A stretch of 23,317 bases of DNA from a virus: positions 1 to 23,317 of the IMG/VR virus record IMGVR_UViG_3300038363_000014. One strand, written 5' to 3'. The position numbers and the translations under genes were made by a program. Positions 1,517-23,317 of this stretch are shown here, in pieces (position 1 is the first letter of the stretch; each line of letters opens with the position of its first letter). The notes below the pieces were generated by a model that saw only the letters and a program-made list of their open reading frames with translations, did no database searches and was not told where the DNA came from.

Positions 1517-2676
1517 TGAATACTATAAATGATAGCAGTTTAGGGATGACAGATGAAGAGTTCCTAAAACAAGACCCTAGTACCTTTGAAACAGATGATA
1601 TAGATACTGCTGGAGATACAGAAGCAGTATTAGAAGAGAATACAGATACTGAGGCAGAGCATACTGCTGATGTGGAAGTAGAGGATGAGAATCCTCAAGA
1701 TGTAGAAGCCCAAGAGCAACTTGATCCATCAAGTGAAGATGACGAAGTAAGCCAACCAGAAGGGGATACCCAGACGGAGCATGAAACTGAATCTAAAGTT
1801 AATGAGGAAGAGTCTCTTGATACAGAAGCCGAAACTAGTGACACAAATGGGGATACTCAGGAAACACAAGAGGTAGACTTCCAAGGAGCGTATAAGAGGA
1901 TCTTTGCACCGTTTAAAGCCAATGGTAAAGAGATGCAGGTAGACAATGTCGAGGACGTTGTTAAGCTTATGCAGATGGGTGCTAATTACAATAAGAAGAT
2001 GTCGGCTATTAAGCCGCAGCTAAAGATTGTGAAGATGCTAGAGAATAACGGTTTACTTCATGAAGGTAAACTTAATAATCTCATTGACCTATCTAAGAAA
2101 GACCCTGCAGCTGTAGCCAAGCTTATTAAAGATAGTGGTATAGATCCTTTAGATATTGATACTGATAAGGATGTTGATTACAACCCAACCGAGTATAGTG
2201 TATCAGATAAAGAGTATGAGCTAGACCAAGCCCTGAATGATATTAGGGATAGTAGCACTTTTAATAAAACACTAGACGTTATGAGTCAACAGTGGGACAC
2301 TAAGAGTAAAACTATTATTTCAGATAGTCCTGCGATAATTGGTATTATTGACCAGCATATGCAGAATGGTGTATATGAACAAGTCAGTAGTCTTGTTGAA
2401 AGAGAGAAAGCATTAGGCCACCTTGATGGGGTGGCTGATGTGGAAGCTTATAGACAAGCAGCAGAGTACTTAGCATCTACCGGTGTACTAGTTGGGGGGA
2501 CACAAACACAACAACCAGCTACCAGTGTATCAGAGACTAAAGCAAAACCGGATACAGCAGAGCTAAATAAGAAACGTAAAGCTGCTGCATCCAGCAAGTC
2601 TAAGCAGGCTGCTTCTAAACCTAAGGAAGACTTCCTAGGGTTGTCAGATGAAGAGTTTATGAAGCAGTACGCTTAG
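1516..2676 (+). CDS. Scaffold-like capsid assembly protein (N4 gp57-like by position)
   Basis: The gene encodes 386 residues and lies immediately upstream of the capsid gene, where assembly scaffolds usually sit. Residues 12-120 are extremely acidic and low in complexity (Glu, Asp, Thr), as expected of a disordered region. Residues 125-320 look more ordered and helical, beginning near FQGAYKRIFAPFKANGKEM. Residues 340-370 are Lys/Ala/Ser-rich and basic. Nearly the same 11-residue motif occurs at both ends: LGMTDEEFLKQ at residues 9-19 and LGLSDEEFMKQ at residues 374-384. Phage scaffolds often bind capsid protein through a short terminal helix, so these may be two capsid-binding motifs (inference). 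The start ATG overlaps the preceding stop. Scaffold function is inferred from position, acidity and disorder; no catalytic motif is seen. Confidence 0.65.
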   Translation: MNTINDSSLGMTDEEFLKQDPSTFETDDIDTAGDTEAVLEENTDTEAEHTADVEVEDENPQDVEAQEQLDPSSEDDEVSQPEGDTQTEHETESKVNEEESLDTEAETSDTNGDTQETQEVDFQGAYKRIFAPFKANGKEMQVDNVEDVVKLMQMGANYNKKMSAIKPQLKIVKMLENNGLLHEGKLNNLIDLSKKDPAAVAKLIKDSGIDPLDIDTDKDVDYNPTEYSVSDKEYELDQALNDIRDSSTFNKTLDVMSQQWDTKSKTIISDSPAIIGIIDQHMQNGVYEQVSSLVEREKALGHLDGVADVEAYRQAAEYLASTGVLVGGTQTQQPATSVSETKAKPDTAELNKKRKAAASSKSKQAASKPKEDFLGLSDEEFMKQYA

Positions 2677-2711
2677 ATTAATTTAACTTTAATTTATAAG
2701 GATATATTATT
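2677..2711 (+). promoter_or_regulatory. AT-rich leader and ribosome-binding site of the capsid gene
   Basis: The 35 bases between the scaffold-like and capsid genes are almost all A and T. They include AAGGAT at 2698-2703, eight bases before the ATG at 2712. Such an unstructured leader fits very high expression of the capsid protein. I do not see a reliable -35 element, so no promoter is claimed. Confidence 0.45.
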
Positions 2712-3842
2712 ATGGCTACAAATTACAATGACCCACTAGGTGGGACAGCTTCAACTATCGGGTCTCAGGCACGTACTGATTACTACCACAAGAAAGCACT
2801 TATCGCTGTACGTGATAAGCAGTACTTTATGCCTTTGGCTAATGTACGTGCTATGCCTAAGCATATGGGCAAGAAGATTAAGCAAGATGTCTACATCCCA
2901 TTGCTTGATGACCGTAACGTAAATGACCAAGGTTTGAGTGCTGCAGGTGCAGTAATCGCAGACGGTAACCTATATGGCTCTAGTAAGGATACTGGAGTTA
3001 TCGGTACTAAGATCCCTACTCTTACTGAGAATGGTGGACGAGTTAACCGTGTAGGTTTCACACGTCTACAGATTGAGGGTGATATCCACAAACGTGGTTT
3101 CTTCACTGAGTATACTCAAGAGTCTTTAGACTTTGATAGTGATGCAGAGCTTCTATCCCATATTACTGAGGAAGCTTTAGTAGGTGCTAATGAGCTTACT
3201 GAGGCAGAGCTTCAGTCGGACCTTATTACTACTGCTTCTGCAGATGGTACTGTTTACTACATCGGTGGTACAGCTAAGGATGAGGTTACTGGTGTAGTTA
3301 CTTATACTGATCTTATGAACTTGTCTATTGCATTAGATAATAACAAGACTCCTAAGCAGACTAAAGTAATTGCAGGTTCACGTATGATTGATACTAAAAC
3401 TATCAATGGTGGGCGAGTAATGTACATTGGTTCTGAGATGATTCCTGCTATCCGTGCTATGACTGATTTGCATAGTAACCCAGCATTTGTTTCAGTAGAG
3501 AAATATGCTAATGCAGGTAACATCCTAAACGGTGAGATTGGTTCAGTAGATCAGTTCCGTCTAGTAGTCGTTCCTGAGATGCAATCATCTGTAGGTGCTG
3601 GTGCTGCTGGAGTAGATATCTACCCAATGCTTGTTGTTGGTGATGGTTCATTTACTACTATCGGTTTCCAGACTGACGGTAAGACTGTGAAGTTCACTAT
3701 TAACCACAAGAAACCTGGGAAAGAGATTGCAGATCGTACTGACCCTTATGGTGAGACTGGCTTCTATTCTATCAAGTACTACTATGGCTTCATGGCTCTA
3801 CGCCCTGAACGTCTTGGTATTGTTTGGACAGAAGACGCATAG
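2712..3842 (+). CDS. Major capsid protein (N4 gp56-like)
   Basis: This 376-residue protein is called as the HK97-fold major head protein that forms the icosahedral shell. N4 gp56 is about 400 residues, so the length fits. Visible features include an early segment with [20 protein letters not shown], a glycine-rich stretch ([20 protein letters not shown]), then a long helical region with [19 protein letters not shown]. It ends with [18 protein letters not shown], a C-terminal pattern seen in N4-type capsid proteins. The start ATG at 2712 follows an AAGGAT. The codons appear more regular than in neighbouring genes, as expected for a highly expressed gene. It lies between the scaffold-like gene and a hairpin that could end or stabilise its transcript. 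Confidence 0.85.
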
Positions 3843-4481: not shown

Positions 4482-6317
4482 ATGGCGATAACTATAGCAG
4501 ATCTTACAAGTAACGTAGCTACAGTAGACGGTGTAGTTACTGGTGATGGCGTATTTGATGAACTAATGGAAGCAGTCAATTCACAGCTAGAAAACCAGTA
4601 CGCTTTAGGTAGAATAACTGGTGGAGATTTTGCAACTGTTTATTTAGGAGCAATGCAAAGTGCCTTACAATCTTCAGTTAGTTATACACTTGATCAAGAA
4701 AAAACAAATGCTGATGTAGTATTAATAGGTAAACAAGGTTTAAAAATAGATGCAGATAAATTATTAGTTGATGCTCAAGAATTACTAACAGATGCACAAA
4801 AATTAAAAGTAGATGCAGATATAGTTTTAAGTGGTAAACAAGGTGCAAAAGTTGATGCTGATAAATTACTAGTAGATGCTAATGAATTATTAACTGATGC
4901 GCAGAAATTAAAAGTTGATAGTGATGTAGCATTAAATACTAAACAAGGGGCTTTACTTGATGCTCAAGAATTAAAAGTTGATGCAGATGTAGTATTAGTA
5001 GGTAAACAGGGCTTAAAAGTTGATGCAGATAAATTATTAACTGATAAACAGGTAGTTAAACTAACAGCAGATGTTGCATTAGGTGTTAAACAAGGTACAT
5101 TAACTGATAATCAAGCAGCAACAGAACTAAAGAAAGCTCTTGATATTGTTAATACAACTACTAATAGAAGTGCGTCACAAGCTACATCAGAAAATACAGC
5201 AATAAAACAAAGATTATTACTTGTTAATCAAACTGCGACTGAACTTAAACAAGCTTTAGACATAGTTGCTGCTACTTCACTTAAAGATAAGCAAGCATTG
5301 ACTGAAGTCAAACAAGCACTAGATATAGTAGGTGCCACTACACTCAAAGGTAAACAAGGTTCATTAACTGATAACCAAGCAGCATCAGAGTTGAAAAAAG
5401 CTCTTGATATTGTATCAACTACAAGTGTTCGTGATACACAATCTACTAAAGATGGTTTACTTAAGACTGCTCAAACTTCAGTGGCAACTAATCAAGCCGC
5501 TACTGAACTTAAACAAGCACTAGATATAGTAAGTGCTACTTCACTCAAAGGTAAACAAGGAAGTTTAGTAGATAATCAATCTGCTACTGAACTTAAAAAA
5601 GCTTTAGATTTAATTGGAGCTACTTCACTTAAAGGATCACAGAAAGAATTAGCAGACAAACAAGCATTAACCGAAGTTAAACAGACATTAGATGTAATAG
5701 GTGCTACTGCACTCAAAACTAAACAAGGAAGTTTAATTGATAATCAAGCAGCAACTGAACTTAAAGTAGCATTAACTGAAGTTAAAAAAGCACTAGATGT
5801 AGTTGCTTCTAGTTCACTTAAAGATAAACAAGCATTAACTGAAGTTAAGAAAGCTTTAGATTTGGTTTCTAGTCAAGAAGTTCGTGATGCACAATCTGGT
5901 GCTGATATTACATTGAAAGGTAAACAAGGAGGATTAGTTGATAATCAATCAGCAACTCAAGTTAAACAAGCTTTAGATTTAATTGGTGCTACTGCACTTA
6001 AAAATGCTCAAGAAGAAAAAACAGATGCTGAAAAAGCTTTATTAGGACAGAAAGAAATTACTGAGTATGCACAAACACAAAAAAGTACTAAAGCTGCTCC
6101 TGATGCTGGTAGTATTATGGGTAAACAAGCTACCTTATATGGTGAACAATCTAAAGGGTTTAAATGGAACGCTGACCAGAAGTATTTAGATACTCTCCTT
6201 AAAGCTTGGCAGATGAATGTTAATACTGCTGGTATCCCTAGTACAGGTGTGGATGCACTAAACGCTACAGGTACACCAAATATCAATACAATTATCTCAG
6301 ACTCTAAACCTACATAA
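4482..6317 (+). CDS. Heptad-repeat virion protein (N4 gp54-like ends with an expanded coiled-coil middle)
   Basis: This 611-residue protein has three parts. Residues 1-76 (with GDGVFDELMEAVNSQLE and GGDFATVYLGAMQSALQ) and residues 526-611 (with GFKWNADQKYLDTLLKAWQ) resemble the conserved ends of N4 gp54-type structural proteins. Residues 77-525 are about 64 successive seven-residue units built on variants of LKVDADK, LLTDAQK, GKQGSLT, DNQAATE and LKKALDI. These predict a long rod-like coiled coil. The start at 4482 directly follows the previous stop, with AGGAG at 4469-4473 as its binding site. The repeat DNA is visibly more AT-rich than the ends, about 28-30% GC in two lines I counted against 37-42% in two flanking lines. 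The likely role is a head-neck or tail component; the exact location in the virion is unknown. Confidence 0.65.
   Translation: MAITIADLTSNVATVDGVVTGDGVFDELMEAVNSQLENQYALGRITGGDFATVYLGAMQSALQSSVSYTLDQEKTNADVVLIGKQGLKIDADKLLVDAQELLTDAQKLKVDADIVLSGKQGAKVDADKLLVDANELLTDAQKLKVDSDVALNTKQGALLDAQELKVDADVVLVGKQGLKVDADKLLTDKQVVKLTADVALGVKQGTLTDNQAATELKKALDIVNTTTNRSASQATSENTAIKQRLLLVNQTATELKQALDIVAATSLKDKQALTEVKQALDIVGATTLKGKQGSLTDNQAASELKKALDIVSTTSVRDTQSTKDGLLKTAQTSVATNQAATELKQALDIVSATSLKGKQGSLVDNQSATELKKALDLIGATSLKGSQKELADKQALTEVKQTLDVIGATALKTKQGSLIDNQAATELKVALTEVKKALDVVASSSLKDKQALTEVKKALDLVSSQEVRDAQSGADITLKGKQGGLVDNQSATQVKQALDLIGATALKNAQEEKTDAEKALLGQKEITEYAQTQKSTKAAPDAGSIMGKQATLYGEQSKGFKWNADQKYLDTLLKAWQMNVNTAGIPSTGVDALNATGTPNINTIISDSKPT
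4710..6056 (+). repeat. Degenerate 21-base (7-codon) repeat array encoding coiled-coil heptads
   Basis: About 64 heptads run through codons 77-525 of the 611-aa protein. Two families are visible. The first part uses DADKLLV/DAQELLT/GKQGLKV units. The second part uses larger modules of 21, 28, 35 or 39 residues built from GATSLKG, KQGSLTD, NQAATEL and KKALDIV. The two 39-residue modules both contain VRDxQS and equal four heptads plus eleven residues, the usual length of a coiled-coil stutter. Such arrays can change length by recombination or slippage. Confidence 0.8.
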
Positions 6318-9818: not shown

Positions 9819-11702
9819 ATGGCAGTAGCTACAGCATTTAACATAAGTGACGGGCAATTCAAAGCGCAGGAGTATATCGAGCCTACAGCACTTGATGTAG
9901 GGGATATCTTCGCACCAATAAGTGACGAATTGGCTGCTGGGAGCACACGAGACTACAGAGGTGCTTTAACTGACCATACTGACGAATTAGCCCGACAGAA
10001 GGCAATCAAAAACTACGTAGCCATAGAAGAGGAGCGTTTACTAAACGCACCGGATCGTGAGTTAGCGAGTGTTCAAGCAGCAGATAGTATTGCTGCGTAC
10101 CTTAGTCCGCAGGCTAAGGCTAATAGGGACGAGGCTCAAAAGCAACTTGAGGCGAAGAAAAGCATAGATTTATATCTAACTGGCAATACGATATCTAACA
10201 GGAAACAGTATCTCCCAGACGAGATAGTTAGGGCTAACGTCGCTGCAGGGCAAACTGAAACAGTTACCCAAAATAAGGCAGACCTAGATACTCAGTTGTT
10301 TAACTTAAGCACAGAACCTAGTGCATTAGAGCAAATGACGAAAATGCAGGAAGATATCTTTAGGACCCAACTAATGCAAGGGGGTCAGACTGCTGAACAG
10401 GGTTATAATGACATACTGATTAAAAAAGCAATAAATGAGTTCACTAGTCCATTGGCTCGCGATCTGGCCCTACGACAGGCGCAGGTAGCCCAGCAAACTG
10501 CTGAGAACAATATAAGGAAATTGGAGAATGAGGCGAAGATAATAGACACACACCTAACCGCAAGCTTACCAATTGCCCTGGACACAGCTAATAAGGTAGC
10601 TGCAGACAAGACAAAGAATGCAAGTACGATAGTGGCTAATGCTGTCACTGCACAGGCTCAGAAGGTTCGGGAGGAACAGCTGCGTTTGTCACTTGCTGAA
10701 ACAACTTTAACTATAGAGGAACAGAAGGCTGCCCTCAAGGTAGTCGAGGGTTTGGGTGAGGAGATAGAAATAGATCAAGCAATAAAGGTAGCCAAGTATG
10801 TCGTCAATGAAACCCCCCACCTAACGGGCGTAATGAATGACCTTAATAATACGACTGAAGATAAATTAACTGCTATAACTAACCTGGCACAAGGTATTAT
10901 TAGTCAAGGGGTAACACCAGAGCAAACAGCTACTCAAATTAAACCATATCTGGATACCCTCACAGCGACACATAAATTCGCTACCGATAGTAAACAAAGT
11001 GTGGATACTCTTATACAAGACCTTGTAGGTGAGGGAGGGGCAGTAACCCTCGCTACCTTGAAAGATGTAAGGAAAAGCCTTACAGCCTTTCACGGGAAGC
11101 GCTTCGTATTTACTCCACTTGCTGATGATTACGCTAAGAAGGTAATGGGGGCATCTAATCTACCTACACAGTATAAACAATTAGCAATTAGCCATAACCA
11201 AAGTATTATCGCTGCGCAAGAACAAGTAGACTTAATGAAAGCGGCTAGCAGTGGTGAGTTATTTACTGCACAACAGTTTGCAGATAGTGTGGGTATCTCT
11301 GTTGAGGAGCTAAGAGATACTGTGTTCGGTGAATCTCCGTATACGGACTTTAAATCAGCTATAATTAATATAGCAGATCAGTTATATGGTACGGATCCTA
11401 CTGATATTAGAAGAAGGCAGCTGTACTCTCAGGTGAACCAACGGGTAATCTTTAGTATAAGTGGGTCTAATGAAGGTGGTATAGCTGCACTTGGTGGGGT
11501 CGATACTCTTGAAGATGGGGTGGGAGATGATGCAGCCAACTGGAATAAAGCTGAGGCAACGTCTTGGCTTAAGGCTACTTTCCCTGATGGCTTTGGTCCG
11601 AATAGCAAGTTCAACAAAAAACTTTTAATAGAGGAAATACGGGCTGCCTCAGAAAAGTTAGACCCTAAGAATTGGAAATCCTTCGTATACGGTGAGAACT
11701 AA
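9819..11702 (+). CDS. Helical internal virion protein adjacent to vRNAP (N4 gp51-like by position)
   Basis: This 627-residue protein is strongly helical and rich in Ala, Gln, Glu and Lys. Long probable coiled coils lie at about 60-120 and 190-330. The second half (330-600) looks more globular. No enzymatic motif is visible. The start ATG at 9819 follows AAGGAG at 9806-9811, which overlaps the stop of the previous gene. The stop TAA at 11700-11702 shares its final A with the vRNAP start, so the two are probably translated in a coupled way and in fixed ratio. Position immediately before vRNAP suggests an inner-virion protein that packages or travels with the polymerase. That is inferred from synteny with N4. 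Confidence 0.55.
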   Translation: MAVATAFNISDGQFKAQEYIEPTALDVGDIFAPISDELAAGSTRDYRGALTDHTDELARQKAIKNYVAIEEERLLNAPDRELASVQAADSIAAYLSPQAKANRDEAQKQLEAKKSIDLYLTGNTISNRKQYLPDEIVRANVAAGQTETVTQNKADLDTQLFNLSTEPSALEQMTKMQEDIFRTQLMQGGQTAEQGYNDILIKKAINEFTSPLARDLALRQAQVAQQTAENNIRKLENEAKIIDTHLTASLPIALDTANKVAADKTKNASTIVANAVTAQAQKVREEQLRLSLAETTLTIEEQKAALKVVEGLGEEIEIDQAIKVAKYVVNETPHLTGVMNDLNNTTEDKLTAITNLAQGIISQGVTPEQTATQIKPYLDTLTATHKFATDSKQSVDTLIQDLVGEGGAVTLATLKDVRKSLTAFHGKRFVFTPLADDYAKKVMGASNLPTQYKQLAISHNQSIIAAQEQVDLMKAASSGELFTAQQFADSVGISVEELRDTVFGESPYTDFKSAIINIADQLYGTDPTDIRRRQLYSQVNQRVIFSISGSNEGGIAALGGVDTLEDGVGDDAANWNKAEATSWLKATFPDGFGPNSKFNKKLLIEEIRAASEKLDPKNWKSFVYGEN

Positions 11703-14700
11703 TGACAGGACATGTATTAGACTCTGCAATTGACCGAGCCAAAGCAAATGTAGCACCTGCGTTACTAGCGGAAAAAGCTAGTATAATGGATAAAGTACTA
11801 CAACGTAAAGTCAGTGTATTAGCTCCTACCATCCCAGAGATGGTGGCACCAGTACCAGAAGTGACCCCCGAGATCATGTTAGAAGTGACCCCTGCGCTCA
11901 CACCTGAGATTGTGCCAGAGATCACACCTGCGATTGCGTCAGAGAGCGCAGCTGGGATGTTGGAGCCTGAAGGTACACTAGGAGACCCTGCAGTTGTAGA
12001 TATGGCTGTATCGCCTCCTGAGGAGCCTAAGGATAGCTTTACACGTATACCCATCCCAGAATACTTACGCCAGCAAGCAGAACCTCCCACTAGGAATGAC
12101 ATACCTGTAGATATTCTACCTAAGGAGGACACAACTCCTGTAGATACTAGTTGGTTGAATGCTTTTAAGGGTATTGGGAGTATGGGTGGGGCTGCTTCAG
12201 TAGATACTGTTAAGGCACTTAGGGATATGTATCAGTATGTCGCAGGAGATGATATTAGTGATTTAGCTAAACAGTTTAATTCACATGCCCCAGCTGAGGA
12301 TGTAATTACTGAAGCAGACTTACAGATGTTTGTTGGTACTAAAAAATTAAGTTATACCACTCCACCTTCTAATGAACAAATAACCTTTATGCAATCTTCC
12401 CAGTATAAGAATCTGAATAAGATGGATACTGACTTAGAGATGCTAGACATGGAATGGAAAGAAGCCAGTATAAACACAAAGGCTGAACTACATGAACTAT
12501 CTGGTTGGGATAACAGGGACTTAAATGAATTAGTACAAGGCAGTAATGTTACCTGGCAGAGCGGGAAGGGCTTTACAGATACTTTTGGTAAGATGGTGGA
12601 TTATTACATGGATAACTCAGGAGCTAGTCTCCGATCTGCTATTCCATCATTAGTTCATACTATCCTTTACTCTGGGGGTAAGGCGGTAGAAGCAGCGTTC
12701 TCTACAGTACAAGTACATAAGTATTACAATGAATTTGTAGATGCTAATGAGAAACTGTATGCAGACTTTACTACTGAAGAAAAAGCAGAGGCTTTTGTAT
12801 ATGCATTAGGAGCTGTAGGGACTGAATGGTTTGGTGAAAAAATATTAGGTAATGTTGGTAAAAAATTAGGTAAAGCAATACCTGGTAAATTTAAGAACAT
12901 GGATTTTGAGATTCCTTCGTTAACCAAAGCAGGACAAGTAGCTGTTAATGCAACTGGGGTAGTATTTGCTTCTGGTGCCTCTGAGGCCTCTACAGAAACA
13001 TTTCTACAACTTGGCACAAATGTACGTGACCCAAATTTCAAAGAAGGGGATGTCGCTACAGCATTTGCATTAGGATTAGTTGGTACACCTACGGTAGTTA
13101 GTACAGTAGCAGCAGGGGATACAGCTATCAATACTGTTATAGATAGTACACAATCTACAAATACACAGGTTACTACAGAGCTAGATAGATTAACCCAGAT
13201 TCAGACTGATAATCTGGCGAGTATAGCTAAAGGGGAATCAGATCTAGATATTGATGTAATCCCACATTCTGAGAAAGATACATCTATTAGTGCAGCGGCA
13301 CAGACAGTACAAGCTTCAATTGCTGAAGTAGAAGCTAATTTAGCTCAAGCGACGCGTAATCTCAATACAGAGAAAGTGGATGCAAACGATCCTGAAGCAA
13401 TAGCTGAAGCACAAAAGAATATTGACACGTTCACCACTAGACTGAAATTACTAAAAGAACGCCAACAGGGCATAGTCAAATCCTTAGCGATAGCCAAGCG
13501 AGCACAACTCGCTGTTGGGACAGTAGAAGCTGAAATTGTTAAGAAGCAAGCTCAAATAGACAAGCTAGATACGAAGGTACCTGCTAATGAAAAAGAGACA
13601 GTTAAACTAATCAATCGCAAAGCTAAGATACAGGGGGAGATTGACCAATTAAAACAAAACAAGACGAAGGCAGAGGAGTTAGCTAATGTTGATTACACAG
13701 GCTTAACAGATGCTGATAAAACTACCACTACTACTAAACTCACTGAATCTGTTAAGTCAACAGTCAGGGAGCATCGGGAGGATAGGGCACAAGAGCGTGC
13801 AGACAAGCAAACTGAAAATGCAGTACGTACCGACCAGGTTAAAGAAGAACTAGACACTGTAAATGAAGAAAGAGAAGTACTGCGTAAGGAGATCCTAGCA
13901 GAGAAAGACCCTACTAAAAAACAGGCACTGAAAGATGACTTATCAATCAAGTATGCCGAGAAACAAACTCTGCTACAAGAGCAGCAGAAGTTAGCAAAGG
14001 AGAAGGATACATACCAACAAAGTTTTGTTAAGAGAAGTGTAGCTAAAACTAAGAATGTAGTATCTAAGGTGGTAGACACAGTTGCCGCTACTGCTAAGGG
14101 TACAACTAAATTTATCAAAGAACAGTCTAATACCAATAGGGTTATCAAATCTATCGTAGAGGATTTCCAAACCTACGCTGAGGACTTTACAGGGATATCT
14201 ATAGTAATAGATACAGAAGAGAAAGATAACGACAATAAGAATACTCCAATAGATCTAAGTGCAGGCACTACCTCACCAGAACGTGTAATGGAGTATATCG
14301 TGACTGCAGCGGGGCAGGTTACTACGAAAGTAGAAGATGAATTAGCTAAAATAGAGGAAGGCAGTTCTGAGAAGACGTTATCAGTTGCTGAATTGAATGA
14401 GGCTTTAACTAAAGCCCAAGAAGCATTGCTGCGTGTCACTCGTGCAGAGAATCAACTACCAGCAACTAATCTTGATTCTGGGCGAGTCAAACAAGATGTG
14501 AATACCAGAATAAATAAAGCAGCTAAAAAAATAGATAAATTAGCTAAAGCACAAGGAATACCTGCTACTGCAAAAAAACAAAACAAGAAATTAATGAAGT
14601 TAATAGAGGCTGTTGAGAAGGCACAAACAGATGAAGAAGTCAGTACAACCCTCGCAGCATTTACTAGTATAGTTGAGTCCACACCGGGAAAAGAACTATC

Positions 14701-17700
14701 CGGTGACTATGGTACTATGCTTGATACATTAGCAGAACGTAGTGGGGTAGCTAAATCAGCAATACAGTCCCTATTTAGTTTAGTAGAGGTGACTGGCACT
14801 GAGCAAGGAGAGCAGTTAATACAGACTCTTCGTAAGAAAGCTAGAGGAGAACGTATATCTGAGTATAGTGATGTTGCCTTAGCTAATGAAGTAGCCTCTC
14901 CATTAATTAAAAGTCTTGTTTCCTTTTTAGATTCTGAACCCACTGCTACATCCTTAGCTGCTGATGTAGAGCAAGCGTACAGCGAGGGTTTAGATAAAGT
15001 ATCTACTGATATACTACAAGATGTTGGGCAACACCCTAGATATCAATCAGCAGCAGCCAGGGTTGCCAAGCTATTAACTGCCCTAGAATCAAATGAGGAT
15101 CTAGGTACTGTACTTGAACAGAATAAGAAACTCCGACAGTTTAAAGGACTTCACCAGAAGAAGCTAAATGCTTTTCGGGAAGCAGCACAACTACATCAGG
15201 AGTTGACTGATACAAGTGCCCTCTCAGCTGATGAAGTAGTATTGATTACAAAAACCTCAGCTGATGGTGGGCGTTTCGATGCTCCTCGTGTTGTTACACG
15301 AGAAGAGTATGCTGAATTAACTGAAAATAAAAAATCAGGAGAACACTACTGGTATTACGATGGGGACAAATCAACTAATTTGGTTAATCGTATAGCAGCA
15401 GAAAATGCATTCTTACGTACTGAATTAGATTTAGCTAATAAGATAGGTTTAGCTATCCAGCAACAACATGCACGAGGCATTGCACGTAAATCTCTTGAGG
15501 AGTCTTCTGCAAGTGAGACTGAGGACTTTACGGAGGTACCTGAGGCAAAGGTAGAGGGTAAGAAGCCTCCTGAGGCCCCTAAGAAGGGCAAAGAGGCAGA
15601 CCTACATACAATAGTAAATAAAGATGGTGCTACTACAGATGCACTTGAGGTATATATTAAAAAGCATGTTGGGGCACCTAAACCAACGGATCCCAGTGGA
15701 GATACACACCCATCTATTAAGTTTGCTCTCTGGCACCAAATACTATTAGATGCAGTGAATAAACTGAGTATGTCTGCGGAGAATATTACTAAAGTAAAAC
15801 ATTTAATAAAAGATGCCAAGAAAGATGAGATACTTGCAGCAGTCAAAGCAGAAGGAATAAATCCAGCTACGTTAGATAGTACTGTAAAATATGCTTTGAT
15901 TAAAGAGTTATACGCTGTGTACGGTGATACTGTCCCTCCTCCTATTTCGGCAGGAGAGATAACAAAAGCGGGCATTGACCAGTTAATAGCAACAGTAACA
16001 GAAGAGAATGCAGAGAGTATGGCTGATATACTGGAATCAGTACCTGAACCTAAAGAAGGAAAAGCTGAACTAATACAGTCCGTAAAAAACTTCGCTTCTT
16101 TAACTACAAAAGAACAAGCCCAAGTAAATATAGATCTATCTAATTTCTTAGCTGCAGCAAAAGAAGAAGCTTCTAGTAAAGCCCCTCATTGGTTGTACAA
16201 TCAACCTGACCCTTTACGCCTACTCGTAGGTGAGGGAGCTAAATCCCAATCTAAGTTTTTCACTTCGTTAGCGCAACTAAATAACGGGAAAGGATTTGAT
16301 ATCCATAAGTTGTTTACAGCTGACCCTACCACTGCAGATAAAACTCTTGCTAACTTCCCCTCGATTATCTTCACTAAAGAGAATATACTACGAGACCATA
16401 TTATTGGGCTATTGGCAGATCAGAAGAATGCTCTGCCAGCAGGGAATAAGTTAAGTCAAGAGGAGCATCTGGAGACTTTAACTAAATATGCTAAAACCAT
16501 CGCTCGTAAGTTCTTTGCGTACCGTAAAGCATACGCAGGCATTACTGATCTGCACGTACCTTTGAGTCAGGTGTACCTAACTACGGATTTAGTGGGTTGG
16601 TTTTATAATGTTGAAAAAGTGGATGGGGTAACTAAAATCAACACTACATTACCTGATGCATTGTTATTTAGTATGTTTATGCGTGCGGAAAATTGGCTAG
16701 TAACTGAGGGTACATCGGATCCTTTATCAAATGAACGATTAAGGGAAGCGTTCTTTTATGGTACCTTAGAGCGGAAATTAAATGAGATTGAGAGGAATGA
16801 GTTAACAACCCCTGGGGGACATAAAATAGGTAGAGGGTTTGCTACTGTAGCTAGTAGCATAGGTACTAAGATTATACGTAATACTGGACTCAAACCGGTA
16901 GCATATAAAAAAGATAAGAACGGAAGTAATAATAAAACTAACATAGCAAATCGTGTGCAGGAAAGTATAACTGAAGCTGTAGGCATGCTGGCGTTACGTG
17001 TAATGGAGGAGATGTATTCAAGTACTGAAGTCGGATCTAATAAATACTTATCTAATAAAAAAGATAGACAATATAAGATTAAAATATTTAAACATACCTT
17101 TGTATTGAAAGGGGATGAGCACAATCCTATACGCACATACAATGGTAAAAGTAAATCACGTAAAGCTGATTCAGCCAGATATATATCTGTGATAGATAAT
17201 GCGTATAAAATACTTGCCGATACCCCTCTGAACTCGAAAAGAGAAAGACAACTATATAATACTAATAGTACAAGCAAGAAAGAGATATATGACATTAATG
17301 TAATGTATGCATTGTTGTCAGGAGATAGGGACTTCAACTATGGGGAACCCTTACAAGAGATACACACTGATGCTGCTAAACCTAAGTTTAGTCATTTTCC
17401 TGTATCTAGTAAGTTGCAGGAAGTGGTACAAGGACTTAATAAAGTACCTTGGGGACCTACGGAAATACTGGATGTAGCATTAGAATTATACCAAGATGAT
17501 GATAGCCAAGAGGCTATGTTAAATTTAAGTGAGTTTGTCCATGATCCTAATATATTCACACAAGTGGACCAAGGCTCATTAATAGCTCAAAATGATAATA
17601 CATTAGCTGTCTTACGTGATCTTATTGCGTATCGGGAAGCTGGGTTATTAGATAAATTCTATATCCCTCATGGGGTAATGAACCAGTACCGTATTATGCA

Positions 17701-20700
17701 ACACGGAAAGGTTAGCCCACAAAGCTCACATATAACTAGGTATCTAGTTAAATCCCATGCCGCTGTTACGTTTACTCCAGACAACATTAATTGGTTTAAG
17801 TTAGCCGTAGTATTTAATTTACAGCGAAGCCCAGATAAGTTAACACGAGAGCAAGTACTCCTAGAATTTGATAAGATCATGAATGATCCTGTTATTGTAG
17901 ATGCTGTACAAACTTTCTCAGCTGAGAGTAGAGCCTCTAACAAAGCGAAAGGGAAGGCCCTACAAAATATTATGGATGCTGGGTATGATGCAGATGTCTC
18001 CCTACTATCGGGTGTGTTTGCCTTGATGAAGGCAACTGATATGGTGGAGGGTAAGTTGCAGCTTAAAGATACCTTTGTTTCTGATATAGCTATGGAAGTG
18101 GATGGAATCAGTAATGGTATAGCAATGGCTATTATGCAATTCCCATTCTTCAATACAGAAGAGTTACGTCGTAAATTAGAGCAAGTTGGTAACTTTAATA
18201 AAGACCACTTCACCGCAGCAGAATTTGAGCAGCACTTAGTTGGTATTGAGGATATATACGTATCTTTAGCTAACTTGATGACAGATCAATTTACTGGGAA
18301 AAAAGGTAAAGAGATACTAGGTGCACTACATAATATGTTCGGTTCTTTAATCTCTAAAAATGAGACTGATAAAGGAGTCACTTATCAAATTGCACGTAAC
18401 CTTGTTAAGTATCCTGCTCTAATATTTATATACGGAGGACAAGCTAAACGTATTGCCTCAGAATCTGTACATGAATTACTTACAGCGTTGCAACGTAATA
18501 TTGCAATATTAAATGCTGATTCCACTAGTTTATCCAGAAAAATAGCCAAAGTAAAAAAGAAGATAGCAGAAGTAGAGCAGCAACAAAACACAATACAAGC
18601 AGAGAAGACCAAGGCACTTGAGGCATTCAGTGCTGCGGATACAACCCTAGCTTTACCTGGAATTTCTAAGCTAGAGTCTGAGCATATATTAGCTACTTTA
18701 GATAAAGAGAAGGCACTTGCTGTTATTAAGCAAGTCAACAAGAAACTAGAGGAAGCAAAAGTAAGTAAGAATAAAAAACAAGAGAAACTCTCTACGTTAG
18801 ATTCAGAATTACAAAGTATTACCAATGAGGCTATACGGATCCAAAAAGGAGTCCGTGCATTTACAAATCTTACTGATATTGCCCCTACAGATTTACATAA
18901 GGTAAGTAAGTTTATAGGTAAAGAGAGGGGGGATATAGAAAAGTTTAGTATAACCGAGAATCTTGAATACAGTGCTTTTAGGGCGAAGCTAGAAAGTAAA
19001 TTTGAGACAGCTTACCAAAACTCTCTCCAGACATTATTTAGTGGTGCGGAGGATGGTTTAGGTGGGATATCTGCTGGCCGTGATGCAATTAATGAGTCTG
19101 TTACATTAGTCTATGCTGTGTTTCAAACTAAACTAAATGCAGAGATAAGTAAATTTGTTAACGCACAAGGATACATCCCAGCTAAAACTACTATTAAGCA
19201 GATGATACGTGACCAACTACAATCAGTATTTCCTCATTACAAAGGACCTCTTGATGTAGGTAATTCTGCTATTGATATGGCTGGTACGGCACAACCTAGA
19301 ATAGTTTCTCGACACTTTAAAGATGACCCTGCATTTACTAAAGCACTCTCTGCGTCACAAATAAATGTGAAGTACAAAGAAGGTACGCCTACGGATAGGC
19401 TATCTCCTATTCTAACTCAATACGAGGCTTCAGGACTCAAAGCAGTTATACGTCAGATTATTAATCTCGATGCAACCATACAAGCTGAGACTATAGCTGG
19501 TACAGATTTTACAGGTCTCAGTCTGTATGATGCGAAAATGACAGATGCCCTCTCAGCTGCTACACATGCCTTTGCTTATTCAGATAACTATATTAATACT
19601 AATATGCAAGTAAACTTATCACAGGCAGCGTATGATAATGTAACATCAGTATTTGCAGTTATTAAACCAGTATTAGCTATTGTAGAGCAACAAAAAAACA
19701 CACAACCTAAAAATAGAACGGATATTGATGCTCTAAACAATACTGAGAATTACCTAGATACGTGGAAGAGCTTGAAGCACACGGATAAGGAATATGCAGG
19801 TAACTTTACAACTCTAATAGAATCCTCTCTAGATACCTTGAAATTACATGCTAAGGCGAAAGAGAAGTTCAATAAGATGTTCGATAATTGGGGGTCGTTG
19901 CAAATGCGTATTCCTTTAATGCAAGGGGGGAATGTAGAGGTCGCTCCACAACACTCATTATCACATGAGGTTGCGAGGGCGACGCAGGAGATAGGGGTAC
20001 AGCCTAGCATTGACACAGAGGTAGATTTTTCTTTAGATAGCCTTACGCGTGCTAATATCACCCCTAATACAACCTTCCTAGCTGAAGGCCAGAATGTGGG
20101 CCGAATTACAGTTAATAATTTTACTACACTGTACACAGCGTTTGCCGATATAAGTGATGGGTATTATCAGAGTAAAGGGGAACAGCTCGTACATGAGAAA
20201 CAGCTTACTACTATACTGGATATTATGGCTCCAGTATTGGAGAACCTTAAAAACATTAAACTAGAGATATCAGATATAGATGGCTTGACTCAAGGGGAGG
20301 CAGGAAAACACCGTAACATAGTGTCTATGTACCTTGATAGAAAGAGTGTTCCAGATACACTCTTTGCAATGACTCCTGCTGAAGTATATGTACATGAGAA
20401 TGGGCATATACTTCTCACAAGAGCATTTAAGAATGACTATAAGCTGCAGCGTAAAGCACAACGGATGCTCAGTAATCTAAAAGGTTATATGAATGATAAT
20501 GGGAAATACAAAGTATTTCTCAAAGGGGTTAGTAACCCTACCCCTGCTGATATTGCAATGGCTAAAAGATTATATAATTATTTATTAGATAATCCAGGCA
20601 AAGAGTTAGATGAACTCGCTGAATTTGTAATGCTCGCCACTACGAATAGACAATATATAAGTGCACTTGAAGCATTCAAGAATACACCTAAACATGCAGA

Positions 20701-23317
20701 TGCTACTGGTTGGTTCACCCAACTTATGCAGATAATTAATACTGCTATTGATTCTATTATTCGTACTATTAATAATACTGCAGATAATAAGGCCTACGAC
20801 GATATATTGGATCTAGCTAAAGAGCTGGTACAAGCACAGACAACGCAGATAGATAAATATGCAATAGCTATGGAGAAAATCTCTAGTGCATTGGCTACAT
20901 CTAATAAAGCTATACAAGCGTATACCTCAAGAGTGCATCGTAAAATTAGATCAATGGAAATTGAGGGTAAATTCCAAATACCATTATCGATCTATGTTGG
21001 TGCTACAGCAATGCTGAATAAGAATGTCTACATACGTCTAATCCGTGAAGAGTTAATCAGTAAAATAGGGCTTAAAACTATACGGGATATACTACATGAA
21101 TTAGGTAATGGGGTGTTGTCCAATAAGATGACTCTCTTATTACTGAAAAGCAAGCATCAGATTTCTAAGTTACGACGAATGGTTGAAATAGCTTATGAAA
21201 ACCACTTTAAACAGTTGTTGCCAACAGTCACAGAAAGTGAAGAGCGTATGCTTACTAGAATTGTGTTAGATGCTGATTTGAGTGCCCTTAGTTTATTAGG
21301 TATGAGTTCAAGTAAAATTCTAAAAGTATTAGGTGATTCTGCTCTCTCTTCTGCACAACGAGACAAGTTACTTGCAGAGGTTGACTCTAACATAGTAAAA
21401 CAGGTATTGCCTTATTTAGATGAACTAGCTCACTATATGGCTACAGGAGAGGCAGATGTAACAGGGGCAATTAGGGATGGGTATGATAACGTATACGCCC
21501 TTCTGGTAGATAAGATATATAGACATGAGCAAGTACCTAACAAAGTACTTAAACGGTTAGATGCTTATGTGACTCTCAAAGCACTTGAGGTATTGGGTCC
21601 TCAAGAAATGTCAGTACTAAAGCAGCTTTCTACTGAAAGTCTTAATGACCTATTACAAGAACATTTAATGTATAAGAATGAGGCTCTTGTTAACTTATTC
21701 GATGGGGATAAATATGGAATGAAGAAGGGGTATACTAAAAAACGTATAGACCCATTTATCCATTTTAAGATTGGTACTGCATCAGACACAAAGCAGTATC
21801 GAGCATTGGGATACACGACAAGAATTGATTTAGGAGTTATTCCGGATGTAAATAATACGGCCTCTGGTAATTTCCAAAAGTCCTATATATTTATAGGTAA
21901 GTACACCCCTAATGCTAAACTGATTAGTGGGGGAGCTTCATTCACTGAAATGACCCCATCACATAAATTTGATTTACACCGTTTAGGTAAAGATGGTACA
22001 ACATTGAATAATCAGGATATTAAGCATATCCAGCAACAGCTACAAAAACATAAGATCAAAACACCAGTTAATATTAGACCTATCCGAAAGAGATTCGTAA
22101 CTGCCTCAGGAGATACAGGATTTGGTATTGTTGGTTATCGTGCTATTTTAGGTAATGAGATTGAACATAAAATGCTTAATATTGACCGGCAATTTTCTGA
22201 TGTTATGGCTCACATGAAGTCAAACTACCATGACCAAGTGATGTCCCAGAGTATCAATAATAAATGGCTAACATTGTTTGATGAAGAGCGCAGGAAGCTG
22301 TATAAAAATAACAAGTTTAAATTTGTAGATATATTAGCAGCACCTTACAACACATATTATGATCGTCTACCTCGTACAATGCAAAAATCTATACATGACC
22401 GTAAAGATTCTAAGGGAAGGTACATGATTAGGGAAGAGGTTCTAGATAAAACTTTAGGGTTCTTGCAAGATACTGTAGCAGATTTATTAATTGATCCCAA
22501 CGTAAATCCGCAGATGTACAAATGGGTTAATAGGGTTACTCATGCATTGAAAGCATTAATGCAATCAGCAGTAGAGCGTATCGCTCTGGGTACAGTAGCG
22601 GTAATCAAAAGTAATATAATATCTAATATATACCAGCTTACTATACGTGGTATAGATCCTCGTTATATGATTAAGAAAGTCCGTGAAGGGTATGTAGCAT
22701 ACAAAGAGTATACTACTATGTACGTAGAGGTAGCTAAACTACAGGAGCGTATTAAAAAGTTTAACCTCCCTAGTAAACATAGTACTGTTAAGCGTACTAC
22801 AGCTCTTAAATCCCGTATGAAAGTTAACCCTATGCACCAGTTTTTCAAATATGGGCTCAACAGTATGATCGTGGAAGAAGTAAATGAAGCTTCCCATACA
22901 GGATACTACTCCCATGTAATAGAGCAGACACTATTCGGTAAGAAGGTGGCTAAATTACCTCAAGGTATACTTGATGTAGCACAGACAATCTCTTTATCCC
23001 CTAACAGTAAAGCATTCACTGCATTAAAGCATGTTGTGGCAATGACAGATCTATTAGCTAGGTATGTAATGGTAGAGCACGCAGGGGATACTGCTAAACG
23101 TAAAGGTACAAGTATTAAAGCAGCAAAAGATGCTGAGTTAATCGAAGCTCTACGTGCTTTTGTAGTCTTCGATGAAAACCTATCCCCTAAATTACAGTTG
23201 CTTAGTGATTTAGGTTTATGGTGGTTTGCTCGCTACTTCTTCAGAAATCAGCGTGTAGCATTAGATCTTGTGTCCAAATATCCTACTAATACAGCAATAG
23301 CTGCTGGTATACAGTAC
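11702..23317 (+). CDS. Giant virion-encapsidated RNA polymerase (N4 gp50-like), 3' end outside window
   Basis: The frame is open for all 3872 codons to the window edge. In N4 the homologue (3500 residues) is packaged, injected first, and transcribes early genes from hairpin promoters. Parts seen: a Pro/Glu repeat (residues 42-79); Gly/Ala-rich hydrophobic stretches (413-430, 453-472); coiled coil (about 528-785); polymerase core (about 1480-2765); a metallopeptidase-like motif (2898-2902); and a C-terminal region reaching the edge. The core has MNQYR followed by SPQSS (1993-2009), motif A with D2134, motif B with R2232, K2236 and Y2244, and motif C with D2610. Motif spacings between TxxGR, A and B are close to N4. 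The ATG at 11702 overlaps the previous stop; GGTGAG at 11691-11696 is a modest binding site. By N4 proportions some 300 residues may be missing. Confidence 0.9.
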   Translation, partial: MTGHVLDSAIDRAKANVAPALLAEKASIMDKVLQRKVSVLAPTIPEMVAPVPEVTPEIMLEVTPALTPEIVPEITPAIASESAAGMLEPEGTLGDPAVVDMAVSPPEEPKDSFTRIPIPEYLRQQAEPPTRNDIPVDILPKEDTTPVDTSWLNAFKGIGSMGGAASVDTVKALRDMYQYVAGDDISDLAKQFNSHAPAEDVITEADLQMFVGTKKLSYTTPPSNEQITFMQSSQYKNLNKMDTDLEMLDMEWKEASINTKAELHELSGWDNRDLNELVQGSNVTWQSGKGFTDTFGKMVDYYMDNSGASLRSAIPSLVHTILYSGGKAVEAAFSTVQVHKYYNEFVDANEKLYADFTTEEKAEAFVYALGAVGTEWFGEKILGNVGKKLGKAIPGKFKNMDFEIPSLTKAGQVAVNATGVVFASGASEASTETFLQLGTNVRDPNFKEGDVATAFALGLVGTPTVVSTVAAGDTAINTVIDSTQSTNTQVTTELDRLTQIQTDNLASIAKGESDLDIDVIPHSEKDTSISAAAQTVQASIAEVEANLAQATRNLNTEKVDANDPEAIAEAQKNIDTFTTRLKLLKERQQGIVKSLAIAKRAQLAVGTVEAEIVKKQAQIDKLDTKVPANEKETVKLINRKAKIQGEIDQLKQNKTKAEELANVDYTGLTDADKTTTTTKLTESVKSTVREHREDRAQERADKQTENAVRTDQVKEELDTVNEEREVLRKEILAEKDPTKKQALKDDLSIKYAEKQTLLQEQQKLAKEKDTYQQSFVKRSVAKTKNVVSKVVDTVAATAKGTTKFIKEQSNTNRVIKSIVEDFQTYAEDFTGISIVIDTEEKDNDNKNTPIDLSAGTTSPERVMEYIVTAAGQVTTKVEDELAKIEEGSSEKTLSVAELNEALTKAQEALLRVTRAENQLPATNLDSGRVKQDVNTRINKAAKKIDKLAKAQGIPATAKKQNKKLMKLIEAVEKAQTDEEVSTTLAAFTSIVESTPGKELSGDYGTMLDTLAERSGVAKSAIQSLFSLVEVTGTEQGEQLIQTLRKKARGERISEYSDVALANEVASPLIKSLVSFLDSEPTATSLAADVEQAYSEGLDKVSTDILQDVGQHPRYQSAAARVAKLLTALESNEDLGTVLEQNKKLRQFKGLHQKKLNAFREAAQLHQELTDTSALSADEVVLITKTSADGGRFDAPRVVTREEYAELTENKKSGEHYWYYDGDKSTNLVNRIAAENAFLRTELDLANKIGLAIQQQHARGIARKSLEESSASETEDFTEVPEAKVEGKKPPEAPKKGKEADLHTIVNKDGATTDALEVYIKKHVGAPKPTDPSGDTHPSIKFALWHQILLDAVNKLSMSAENITKVKHLIKDAKKDEILAAVKAEGINPATLDSTVKYALIKELYAVYGDTVPPPISAGEITKAGIDQLIATVTEENAESMADILESVPEPKEGKAELIQSVKNFASLTTKEQAQVNIDLSNFLAAAKEEASSKAPHWLYNQPDPLRLLVGEGAKSQSKFFTSLAQLNNGKGFDIHKLFTADPTTADKTLANFPSIIFTKENILRDHIIGLLADQKNALPAGNKLSQEEHLETLTKYAKTIARKFFAYRKAYAGITDLHVPLSQVYLTTDLVGWFYNVEKVDGVTKINTTLPDALLFSMFMRAENWLVTEGTSDPLSNERLREAFFYGTLERKLNEIERNELTTPGGHKIGRGFATVASSIGTKIIRNTGLKPVAYKKDKNGSNNKTNIANRVQESITEAVGMLALRVMEEMYSSTEVGSNKYLSNKKDRQYKIKIFKHTFVLKGDEHNPIRTYNGKSKSRKADSARYISVIDNAYKILADTPLNSKRERQLYNTNSTSKKEIYDINVMYALLSGDRDFNYGEPLQEIHTDAAKPKFSHFPVSSKLQEVVQGLNKVPWGPTEILDVALELYQDDDSQEAMLNLSEFVHDPNIFTQVDQGSLIAQNDNTLAVLRDLIAYREAGLLDKFYIPHGVMNQYRIMQHGKVSPQSSHITRYLVKSHAAVTFTPDNINWFKLAVVFNLQRSPDKLTREQVLLEFDKIMNDPVIVDAVQTFSAESRASNKAKGKALQNIMDAGYDADVSLLSGVFALMKATDMVEGKLQLKDTFVSDIAMEVDGISNGIAMAIMQFPFFNTEELRRKLEQVGNFNKDHFTAAEFEQHLVGIEDIYVSLANLMTDQFTGKKGKEILGALHNMFGSLISKNETDKGVTYQIARNLVKYPALIFIYGGQAKRIASESVHELLTALQRNIAILNADSTSLSRKIAKVKKKIAEVEQQQNTIQAEKTKALEAFSAADTTLALPGISKLESEHILATLDKEKALAVIKQVNKKLEEAKVSKNKKQEKLSTLDSELQSITNEAIRIQKGVRAFTNLTDIAPTDLHKVSKFIGKERGDIEKFSITENLEYSAFRAKLESKFETAYQNSLQTLFSGAEDGLGGISAGRDAINESVTLVYAVFQTKLNAEISKFVNAQGYIPAKTTIKQMIRDQLQSVFPHYKGPLDVGNSAIDMAGTAQPRIVSRHFKDDPAFTKALSASQINVKYKEGTPTDRLSPILTQYEASGLKAVIRQIINLDATIQAETIAGTDFTGLSLYDAKMTDALSAATHAFAYSDNYINTNMQVNLSQAAYDNVTSVFAVIKPVLAIVEQQKNTQPKNRTDIDALNNTENYLDTWKSLKHTDKEYAGNFTTLIESSLDTLKLHAKAKEKFNKMFDNWGSLQMRIPLMQGGNVEVAPQHSLSHEVARATQEIGVQPSIDTEVDFSLDSLTRANITPNTTFLAEGQNVGRITVNNFTTLYTAFADISDGYYQSKGEQLVHEKQLTTILDIMAPVLENLKNIKLEISDIDGLTQGEAGKHRNIVSMYLDRKSVPDTLFAMTPAEVYVHENGHILLTRAFKNDYKLQRKAQRMLSNLKGYMNDNGKYKVFLKGVSNPTPADIAMAKRLYNYLLDNPGKELDELAEFVMLATTNRQYISALEAFKNTPKHADATGWFTQLMQIINTAIDSIIRTINNTADNKAYDDILDLAKELVQAQTTQIDKYAIAMEKISSALATSNKAIQAYTSRVHRKIRSMEIEGKFQIPLSIYVGATAMLNKNVYIRLIREELISKIGLKTIRDILHELGNGVLSNKMTLLLLKSKHQISKLRRMVEIAYENHFKQLLPTVTESEERMLTRIVLDADLSALSLLGMSSSKILKVLGDSALSSAQRDKLLAEVDSNIVKQVLPYLDELAHYMATGEADVTGAIRDGYDNVYALLVDKIYRHEQVPNKVLKRLDAYVTLKALEVLGPQEMSVLKQLSTESLNDLLQEHLMYKNEALVNLFDGDKYGMKKGYTKKRIDPFIHFKIGTASDTKQYRALGYTTRIDLGVIPDVNNTASGNFQKSYIFIGKYTPNAKLISGGASFTEMTPSHKFDLHRLGKDGTTLNNQDIKHIQQQLQKHKIKTPVNIRPIRKRFVTASGDTGFGIVGYRAILGNEIEHKMLNIDRQFSDVMAHMKSNYHDQVMSQSINNKWLTLFDEERRKLYKNNKFKFVDILAAPYNTYYDRLPRTMQKSIHDRKDSKGRYMIREEVLDKTLGFLQDTVADLLIDPNVNPQMYKWVNRVTHALKALMQSAVERIALGTVAVIKSNIISNIYQLTIRGIDPRYMIKKVREGYVAYKEYTTMYVEVAKLQERIKKFNLPSKHSTVKRTTALKSRMKVNPMHQFFKYGLNSMIVEEVNEASHTGYYSHVIEQTLFGKKVAKLPQGILDVAQTISLSPNSKAFTALKHVVAMTDLLARYVMVEHAGDTAKRKGTSIKAAKDAELIEALRAFVVFDENLSPKLQLLSDLGLWWFARYFFRNQRVALDLVSKYPTNTAIAAGIQY
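16139..19996 (+). other. Single-subunit (T7/N4-type) RNA polymerase core within vRNAP
   Basis: Approximate limits (residues 1480-2765) were set by projecting N4 mini-vRNAP boundaries from the motifs. TxxGR region: 17666-17740, where R1997 aligns without gaps to T7 Arg425, and the following PQ (2006-2007) also aligns. Motif A: 18095-18121, EVDGISNGI, catalytic D2134 with the DGxxxGI pattern of T7. Motif B: 18395-18436, R2232-x3-K2236-x7-Y2244-G, the same spacing as T7 R627, K631 and Y639. Motif C: 19523-19534, LYDA, D2610. Distances R to A (137) and A to B (102) compare with about 135 and 111 in N4. B to C is 374, against about 281. Confidence 0.9.
18482..18856 (+). other. Coiled-coil insertion between polymerase motifs B and C
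   Basis: Residues 2261-2385 are rich in Lys, Glu, Gln and Ala with regular hydrophobic spacing (for example IAKVKKKIAEVEQQQ and KLEEAKVSKNKKQEKL). They lie soon after motif B. The motif B to C distance is about 90 residues longer than in N4, and most of the excess falls here. In T7-like polymerases this interval belongs to the fingers subdomain. Confidence 0.65.
20393..20623 (+). other. HExxH zincin-like metallopeptidase motif in the C-terminal part of vRNAP
   Basis: Residues 2898-2902 read HENGH, preceded by TPAEVYV and followed by hydrophobic residues, as in zincin active-site helices. The second His is followed 69-72 residues later by DELAEF (20609-20626). Its E2971 or E2974 could be the third, gluzincin-type ligand. 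H2898 and H2902 would bind zinc and E2899 would activate water. Zincin domains occur in other giant phage proteins. Activity and substrate are not shown. Confidence 0.55.

Follow-up and report, generated by a model that had tools for sequence, protein, structure and literature searches.

The virion RNA polymerase (vRNAP) encoded in the window, the whole stretch of 23,317 nucleotides analysed here, appears to carry in its C-terminal third a zincin-type peptidase domain with a presumed active site made up of H2898, E2899, H2902 and E2974. The domain occupies a position that we call Z2. At least one intact site of this kind seems to be maintained by selection, and because every complete vRNAP examined has at least one intact site while the other is expendable, the site most likely does chemistry. 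Zinc binding and catalysis are deduced in this reading, to which we assign a probability of roughly 60%.

The idea of a zincin peptidase in this polymerase is right in kind and has already been published for N4. Iyer et al. (2017, PMC5512222) identified residues 2130-2448 of N4 vRNAP as a zincin-like peptidase, described N4-like RNAPs as fused to 'one or more' zincin domains and suggested that these serve in autoprocessing or act on host targets; a 2021 review (PMC8472413) restates the assignment. In the cryo-EM analysis of N4 vRNAP (Bellis et al. 2025 preprint, PMC12633501), domain C1 (2124-2375) bears HExxH and C2 (2376-3500) is described as having no known relative. The HExxH of N4 gp50 itself reads HELVH, at residue 2228. 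What appears to be new is the tandem two-domain anatomy, with one intact and one decayed zincin; the available text of PMC5512222 makes no mention of a decayed tandem copy or of a switch of the intact site.

The window polymerase and its presumed zinc site

The window contains ten ORFs in the same order and number as N4 gp59-gp50, running from portal through major head and ejection proteins to vRNAP. PHROG matches among these ORFs comprise portal, tape measure, major head protein (gp57 and gp56 being among the matches) and vRNAP. The ORF at the gp54 position (4482-6317) encodes 611 residues, about twice the length of N4 gp54, and its PHROG 2050 match is split.

The ORF at 11702..23317 belongs with the N4-type vRNAPs both by its match to PHROG 2206, 'virion RNA polymerase' (E = 4e-128), and by RNAP motifs A, B and C at residues 2132, 2236 and 2609. 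A contig with 100% identity (L003/L199) gives the full protein as 3927 residues, 55 of them past the window end. Profile comparison matched the RNAP region of its clade to N4-type RNAP with a probability of 100 (E = 2e-53), and the motif-C HMM matched residues 2553-2647 (64 bits). The PHROG 2206 match at residues 2883-3869 corresponds to profile positions 2335-3358, and the profile comparison extends beyond the zincin into the C-terminal helical region. By homology to N4, the window vRNAP itself would be ejected into the cell. The vRNAPs in MG592410, MG592668, OM982646, PV053165 and PP301343 are annotated as 'lysozyme domain protein', 'coil containing protein' or 'DNA polymerase'.

11702..23317, + strand: vRNAP (N4 gp50 type), first 3872 of 3927 residues, by PHROG 2206; 3' end open in the window
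18095..18118, + strand: RNAP motif A, EVDGISNG (residues 2132-2139)
18392..18439, + strand: RNAP motif B region, ARNLVKYPALIFIYGG (residues 2231-2246), with KYPALIFIYGG at residue 2236
19523..19540, + strand: RNAP motif C, LYDAKM (residues 2608-2613; YDAKM from 2609), by the motif-C HMM
20393..20407, + strand: HENGH, two presumed His ligands and general-base Glu (H2898, E2899, H2902), from the alignment of 72 relatives
20621..20623, + strand: E2974, presumed third zinc ligand, 72 residues past H2902, invariant in 72 relatives
20888..23317, + strand: C-terminal helical region collinear with N4 C2, by PHROG 2206 and profile comparison; runs 55 residues past the window

An earlier note on this DNA had singled out HENGH at residues 2898-2902 and the downstream DELAEF (nucleotides 20393-20623) as a possible active site some 290 residues past motif C. 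The coordinates are exact, with the codon for E2974 ending at 20623; the distance from motif C is 289 residues for HENGH and 365 for E2974. HENGH is the sole HExxH in the 3872 residues scanned. Composition predicts 0.095 such motifs in this protein, so the motif alone is unconvincing and conservation had to decide.

In an alignment of 72 window-type relatives (A6), the only invariant columns are H129, E130, H133, E205 and N213, the last of these being an Asn eight residues past the Glu equivalent to E2974. As HExxH, but neither the Glu nor the Asn, was used in picking the relatives, only the Glu and Asn columns count as independent evidence. Two candidates had been offered for the third ligand: E2974 is upheld by its invariance in the 72 relatives, while E2971 was dropped because its position is not conserved among them. 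The motif is likewise present at the homologous region in 19/19 GenBank Schitoviridae representatives (separate records). Since this GenBank set had been found through the domain itself, a further set of vRNAPs was gathered with RNAP motif A as the sole criterion, and all 55 of the complete proteins recovered in this way have HExxH downstream, against 0.044 expected in each. Loss of HExxH from close homologues, which would have told against the proposal, was thus seen neither in the relatives nor in the motif A retrieval nor in the Schitoviridae.

In zincin chemistry the Glu of HExxH serves as the general base and is dispensable for holding zinc. That it is nevertheless invariant speaks for catalysis, and we regard the zinc site, judging from these alignments, as being under selection and probably catalytic.

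Predicted fold and structural relatives

The domain was modelled with AlphaFold2 on the 72-sequence alignment (pLDDT 82.4, pTM 0.79). In the model three strands are followed by the HExxH helix, a helical insert and the Glu helix.

20009..20887, + strand: zincin-like domain Z2 (residues 2770-3062 as modelled), from A6, AlphaFold2 and HMM
20255..20338, + strand: three predicted zincin-sheet strands (residues 2852-2859, 2864-2868 and 2873-2879), from DSSP on the model
20375..20434, + strand: active-site helix PAEVYVHENGHILLTRAFKN (residues 2892-2911), carrying HENGH, from the AlphaFold2 model
20603..20644, + strand: Glu helix ELDELAEFVMLATT (residues 2968-2981), carrying E2974, from the AlphaFold2 model

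A structure in which the two His did not share one helix with a Glu to face them had been named as a reason to abandon the proposal; in the AlphaFold2 model, one helix holds both His and a second helix holds the Glu. Model and alignment together display the features of clan MA zincins, namely HExxH on a helix, a conserved Glu on a downstream helix and a preceding sheet. The Z2 domain HMM, which included the identical contig of the window, matched residues 2771-3040 with 231 bits. The domain also fits the definition of the MPTases of polyvalent proteins given in PMC5512222, as a zincin core within a large multidomain protein delivered by a mobile element. Conservation and predicted fold therefore both support a zincin domain of gluzincin layout downstream of the virion RNAP.

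The top Foldseek matches in the PDB were mostly zincins (anthrax lethal factor, E = 0.25; M61 aminopeptidase; LTA4 hydrolase), none of them significant. Among the BFVD viral models the best matches were Vibrio-phage vRNAP-type proteins (E = 4e-8 and 3e-4), with polyvalent and 'zincin protease' proteins ranking lower. At the level of sequence, no Pfam zincin family matched the window vRNAP, and SprT-like matched in 2/72 relatives (1.5e-4 at best). The window domain had no sequence match in the PDB, and N4 C1 matched only N4 vRNAP entries there at meaningful E-values. A search of genome contigs yielded two weak matches.

Tandem zincin-derived domains in N4-type polymerases

The domain HMM matched N4-type proteins twice, and the second match was without HExxH. 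From sequence comparison, N4-type vRNAPs appear to contain two zincin-derived domains in tandem, the intact C1 (Z1) and a decayed copy 228 residues further on, and the window zincin would be the counterpart of the decayed domain and not of C1. Comparison by hhalign of A6 with A7 (62 N4-type second domains), two independent and non-overlapping alignments, gave a probability of 99.4 and E = 4.2e-21 over 176 columns; against N4-type C1 the match of A6 was weaker and shorter (probability 97.7, E = 1.9e-12, 131 columns). The controls (six with shuffled columns, one reversed, and three taken from elsewhere in vRNAP) all remained at probabilities of at most 1 and E-values of at least 0.055, and we rejected on their basis the suggestion that the second N4 match is a low-complexity helix artefact. 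An HMM derived solely from window-type zincins scored the Humphriesvirinae second domain at 80-86 bits. When orthology with N4 C1 was tested, the window domain proved closer to N4 2362-2666, its distance of 1029 residues to the C-terminus is that of Z2, and no counterpart of C1 was found in the window vRNAP.

In the second domain of N4, FQMVT (2456-2460) stands in place of HExxH and T2534 in place of the Glu, with the spacing of 74 retained. The first His has become Phe in 61 of the 62 N4-type second domains, and the third-ligand Glu is kept in 0/62. AlphaFold2 (pLDDT 84.9) models the N4-type second domain as all-helical, with helices from the active-site helix onward and without the sheet. 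Fossils of the decay are seen in early-branching lineages, which read SxQEAYVxExxE as against SxQEVYVHELVH: the string LSAQEAYVSEQVEAV occurs in L265 and similar ones in L266, L270 and L252, while active ones read SAQEVYVHELVHAV.

We then consider the survey of 158 complete, de-duplicated C-terminal regions, most of them from metagenomic contigs, in which the assignment to Z1 or Z2 relied on HMM matches and on how far the site lies from the C-terminus. From HExxH to the C-terminus the distance is 1019-1147 residues in 78 proteins (Z2) and 1204-1342 in 75 (Z1); the corresponding values are 1272 for N4 C1, 1044 for the dead site of N4 and 1029 for the window HENGH. Both sites are intact in three proteins (L229, L264 and L253), where they lie 233-235 residues apart. 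A vRNAP with neither site was found in 0 of the 158 complete C-terminal regions. Five had first been classed in this way; in four of them the HExxH is at the Z1 place and the HMM score falls below the threshold, and the fifth, L179, combines an HExxH with a cut C-terminus. In the split vRNAPs L242, L245 and L254 the HExxH lies on a separate C-terminal ORF, and in L255 a C-terminal ORF with a decayed EELQH is accompanied by a separate 661-residue ORF with HELIH and the Glu motif. The vRNAPs spread over two or three ORFs, with RNAP and C-terminal zincin part apart (L242, L245, L254, L255, L112 and L253, the last broken between motifs A and C), may reflect either genuine splitting of the gene or faulty assembly.

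When the site states are mapped on a tree built from the RNAPs of 128 proteins, in which the labels of L154 and L196 are doubtful owing to short or cut ends, they need 7 changes compared with 44.6 in shuffles. The window groups with 23 others of the same state (support 99), with L080 as their sister (100). A tree computed for the zincin domains has a branch (support 82) that separates Z2 from N4-type Z1 and some extra N-terminal zincins. Both are unrooted 'quick' trees with many long branches, so gain of Z1 and loss of Z1 are not told apart. The distribution of sites suggests that selection preserves at least one intact zincin in each vRNAP and permits the other to be lost.

Several vRNAPs have further inserts. 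Extra zincin-like HExxH domains occur upstream of the RNAP in L055 (residue 1572), L056 (1563), L058 (1510), L062 (407), L074 (1542), L154 (389) and L159 (1049), and those of L154 and L159 group with N4-type Z1 in the domain tree. L085 has an extra HExxH zincin at residue 2511, between motif C and the main zincin (residue 2926) and farther away than the N4 spacing, and in L105 a Peptidase_M90-like HExxH (residue 1072, E = 9e-4) is inserted between RNAP and zincin. HETKH in L088, HEYAH in L082/L084 and some further HExxH motifs were rejected as zincins, being without zincin context or part of other inserts. A superfamily 1 helicase lies between the RNAP motifs and the zincin in the marine vRNAPs L204 (ORF at 1657, 4933 residues), L211 (5001 residues) and L223/L069 (5742+ residues), with matches to Pfam AAA_30 (E = 2e-18 to 4e-16), AAA_19 and UvrD_C_2. 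N4 vRNAP needs single-stranded hairpin promoters, which makes a helicase in the same polypeptide worthy of note.

Possible roles and comparison with known systems

The structural work on N4 (PMC12633501) reports that the C-terminal region autoinhibits the RNAP, that a flexible linker joins the two, that recombinant full-length vRNAP is intact with 'no evidence of degradation', and that vRNAP is ejected into the cell. The protein is packaged unprocessed (PMC5512222), and its C-terminal part is required for encapsidation (PMC4496689, citing unpublished work; PMC5512222). Since N4 vRNAP is found uncut both in recombinant form and in the particle, at least the N4 protein is unlikely to cleave itself constitutively, and a peptidase would have to be latent and act post-ejection. 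We therefore picture an enzyme that would be latent in the virion, would become active after ejection into the cell, and might then cleave in cis or in trans near the junction of polymerase and C-terminal region, or cut ejectosome or host proteins. The substrate and the timing in this scheme are what we infer around the observed motif, its conservation, the predicted fold and the pattern of tandem copies and decay. The flexible linker and the inhibition of RNAP by the C-terminal region make the junction a plausible cis target, the chief alternative being a target in the host or the ejectosome. In a more specific and decidedly speculative form, N4-type vRNAPs would descend from ancestral forms in which two zincins stood in tandem and one or the other had to remain intact, and the survivor would be a post-ejection switch that cuts the C-terminal linker and so relieves the inhibition of the polymerase.

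It is possible, if unlikely, that the zincin is an injected effector which, as infection begins, cuts a host protein involved in defence, the envelope or transcription instead of vRNAP. Entry of vRNAP into the cell by ejection and the lack of self-degradation of the recombinant protein (PMC12633501) would suit such a role, as would the proposal of polyvalent-protein zincins as possible effectors (PMC5512222) and the varied extra zincins elsewhere in marine vRNAPs. However, a position adjacent to the junction, together with retention in every complete vRNAP examined across many unrelated hosts, fits a core function better. We consider it unlikely that the site is a structural one in a pseudo-enzyme, where zinc would lend stability to the C-terminal region as it is packaged, ejected or refolded and nothing would be cut. 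The need for the C-terminal part in encapsidation (PMC4496689, citing unpublished work; PMC5512222) and the modelled persistence of the decayed N4 copy as an all-helical domain without ligands are in keeping with this, but the HExxH Glu, though dispensable for zinc, never varies in sequences that retain the two His, and in the disused copy the His, this Glu and the third ligand vanish together (first His to Phe in 61/62, third Glu in 0/62).

The remaining explanations concern what the domain is. In their N4 structure paper (PMC12633501), Bellis et al. cite an alphaKG-HExxH-type hydroxylase and leave such a non-peptidase HExxH enzyme open; we find it highly improbable, as zincins are indicated by the placing of the downstream Glu helix, by the topology of the sheet and by the fold neighbours, and the window vRNAP showed none of the other catalytic domains of that pathway. 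That the window zincin is an ordinary orthologue of N4 C1, with the second N4 domain an unrelated helical region, is improbable. Both domains directly follow the RNAP (motif C to HExxH is about 289 residues in the window and about 269 in KP8), and N4-type C1 does match the window-type profile (probability 97.7, E = 1.9e-12), yet the second N4 domain matches it better and over more columns (E = 4e-21, 176 columns), the distance to the C-terminus falls in the Z2 range and not that of Z1, tandem-active intermediates and decay fossils exist, and the domain tree sets Z2 apart from Z1 (support 82). As for a chance HExxH without a zinc site, the expectation of 0.095 from composition and the unusual variant HENGH lend it next to no probability when set against invariance in homologues together with the downstream Glu, the predicted fold, and 55/55 in a motif-independent retrieval where 0.044 was expected each.

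Work on N4 has yet to settle what the C-terminal third of vRNAP does, and C2 is without a relative in the 2025 structure paper (PMC12633501). The decay pattern indicates that N4 C2 starts with a former zincin, and that every complete vRNAP examined has at least one intact zinc site although its place has changed. Phages with the other site only (window type, Pontosvirinae) or with both (L229, L264 and L253) offer natural controls.

Compared with known systems, the window zincin resembles N4 C1 (gp50 2124-2375; PDB 9PNR, 9PNT and 9PNW) in having HExxH with an xEF Glu about 72-78 residues on, and in lying between the RNAP and the C-terminal helical region. The two nevertheless differ in being paralogous by profile score and C-terminus distance, and whereas N4 has a decayed zincin after C1, the window carries a single, intact zincin and nothing that corresponds to C1. 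The N4 gp50 region at about 2362-2666, the start of the published C2, is collinear and profile-homologous with the window zincin and shares its order of helices from the HExxH helix on, but it has lost all ligands and is modelled without a beta sheet. In common with the MPTases of polyvalent proteins (PMC5512222), the window domain has HExxH, a Glu on a second, C-terminal helix, a three-stranded sheet and fusion to an N4-type RNAP. The Vibrio-phage Pontosvirinae vRNAPs (1.026.O, 1.097.O and pVa5) carry, as the window does, a single intact Z2-type zincin (HELNH) with an equal C-terminal length, at about 23-31% identity to the window over the domain.
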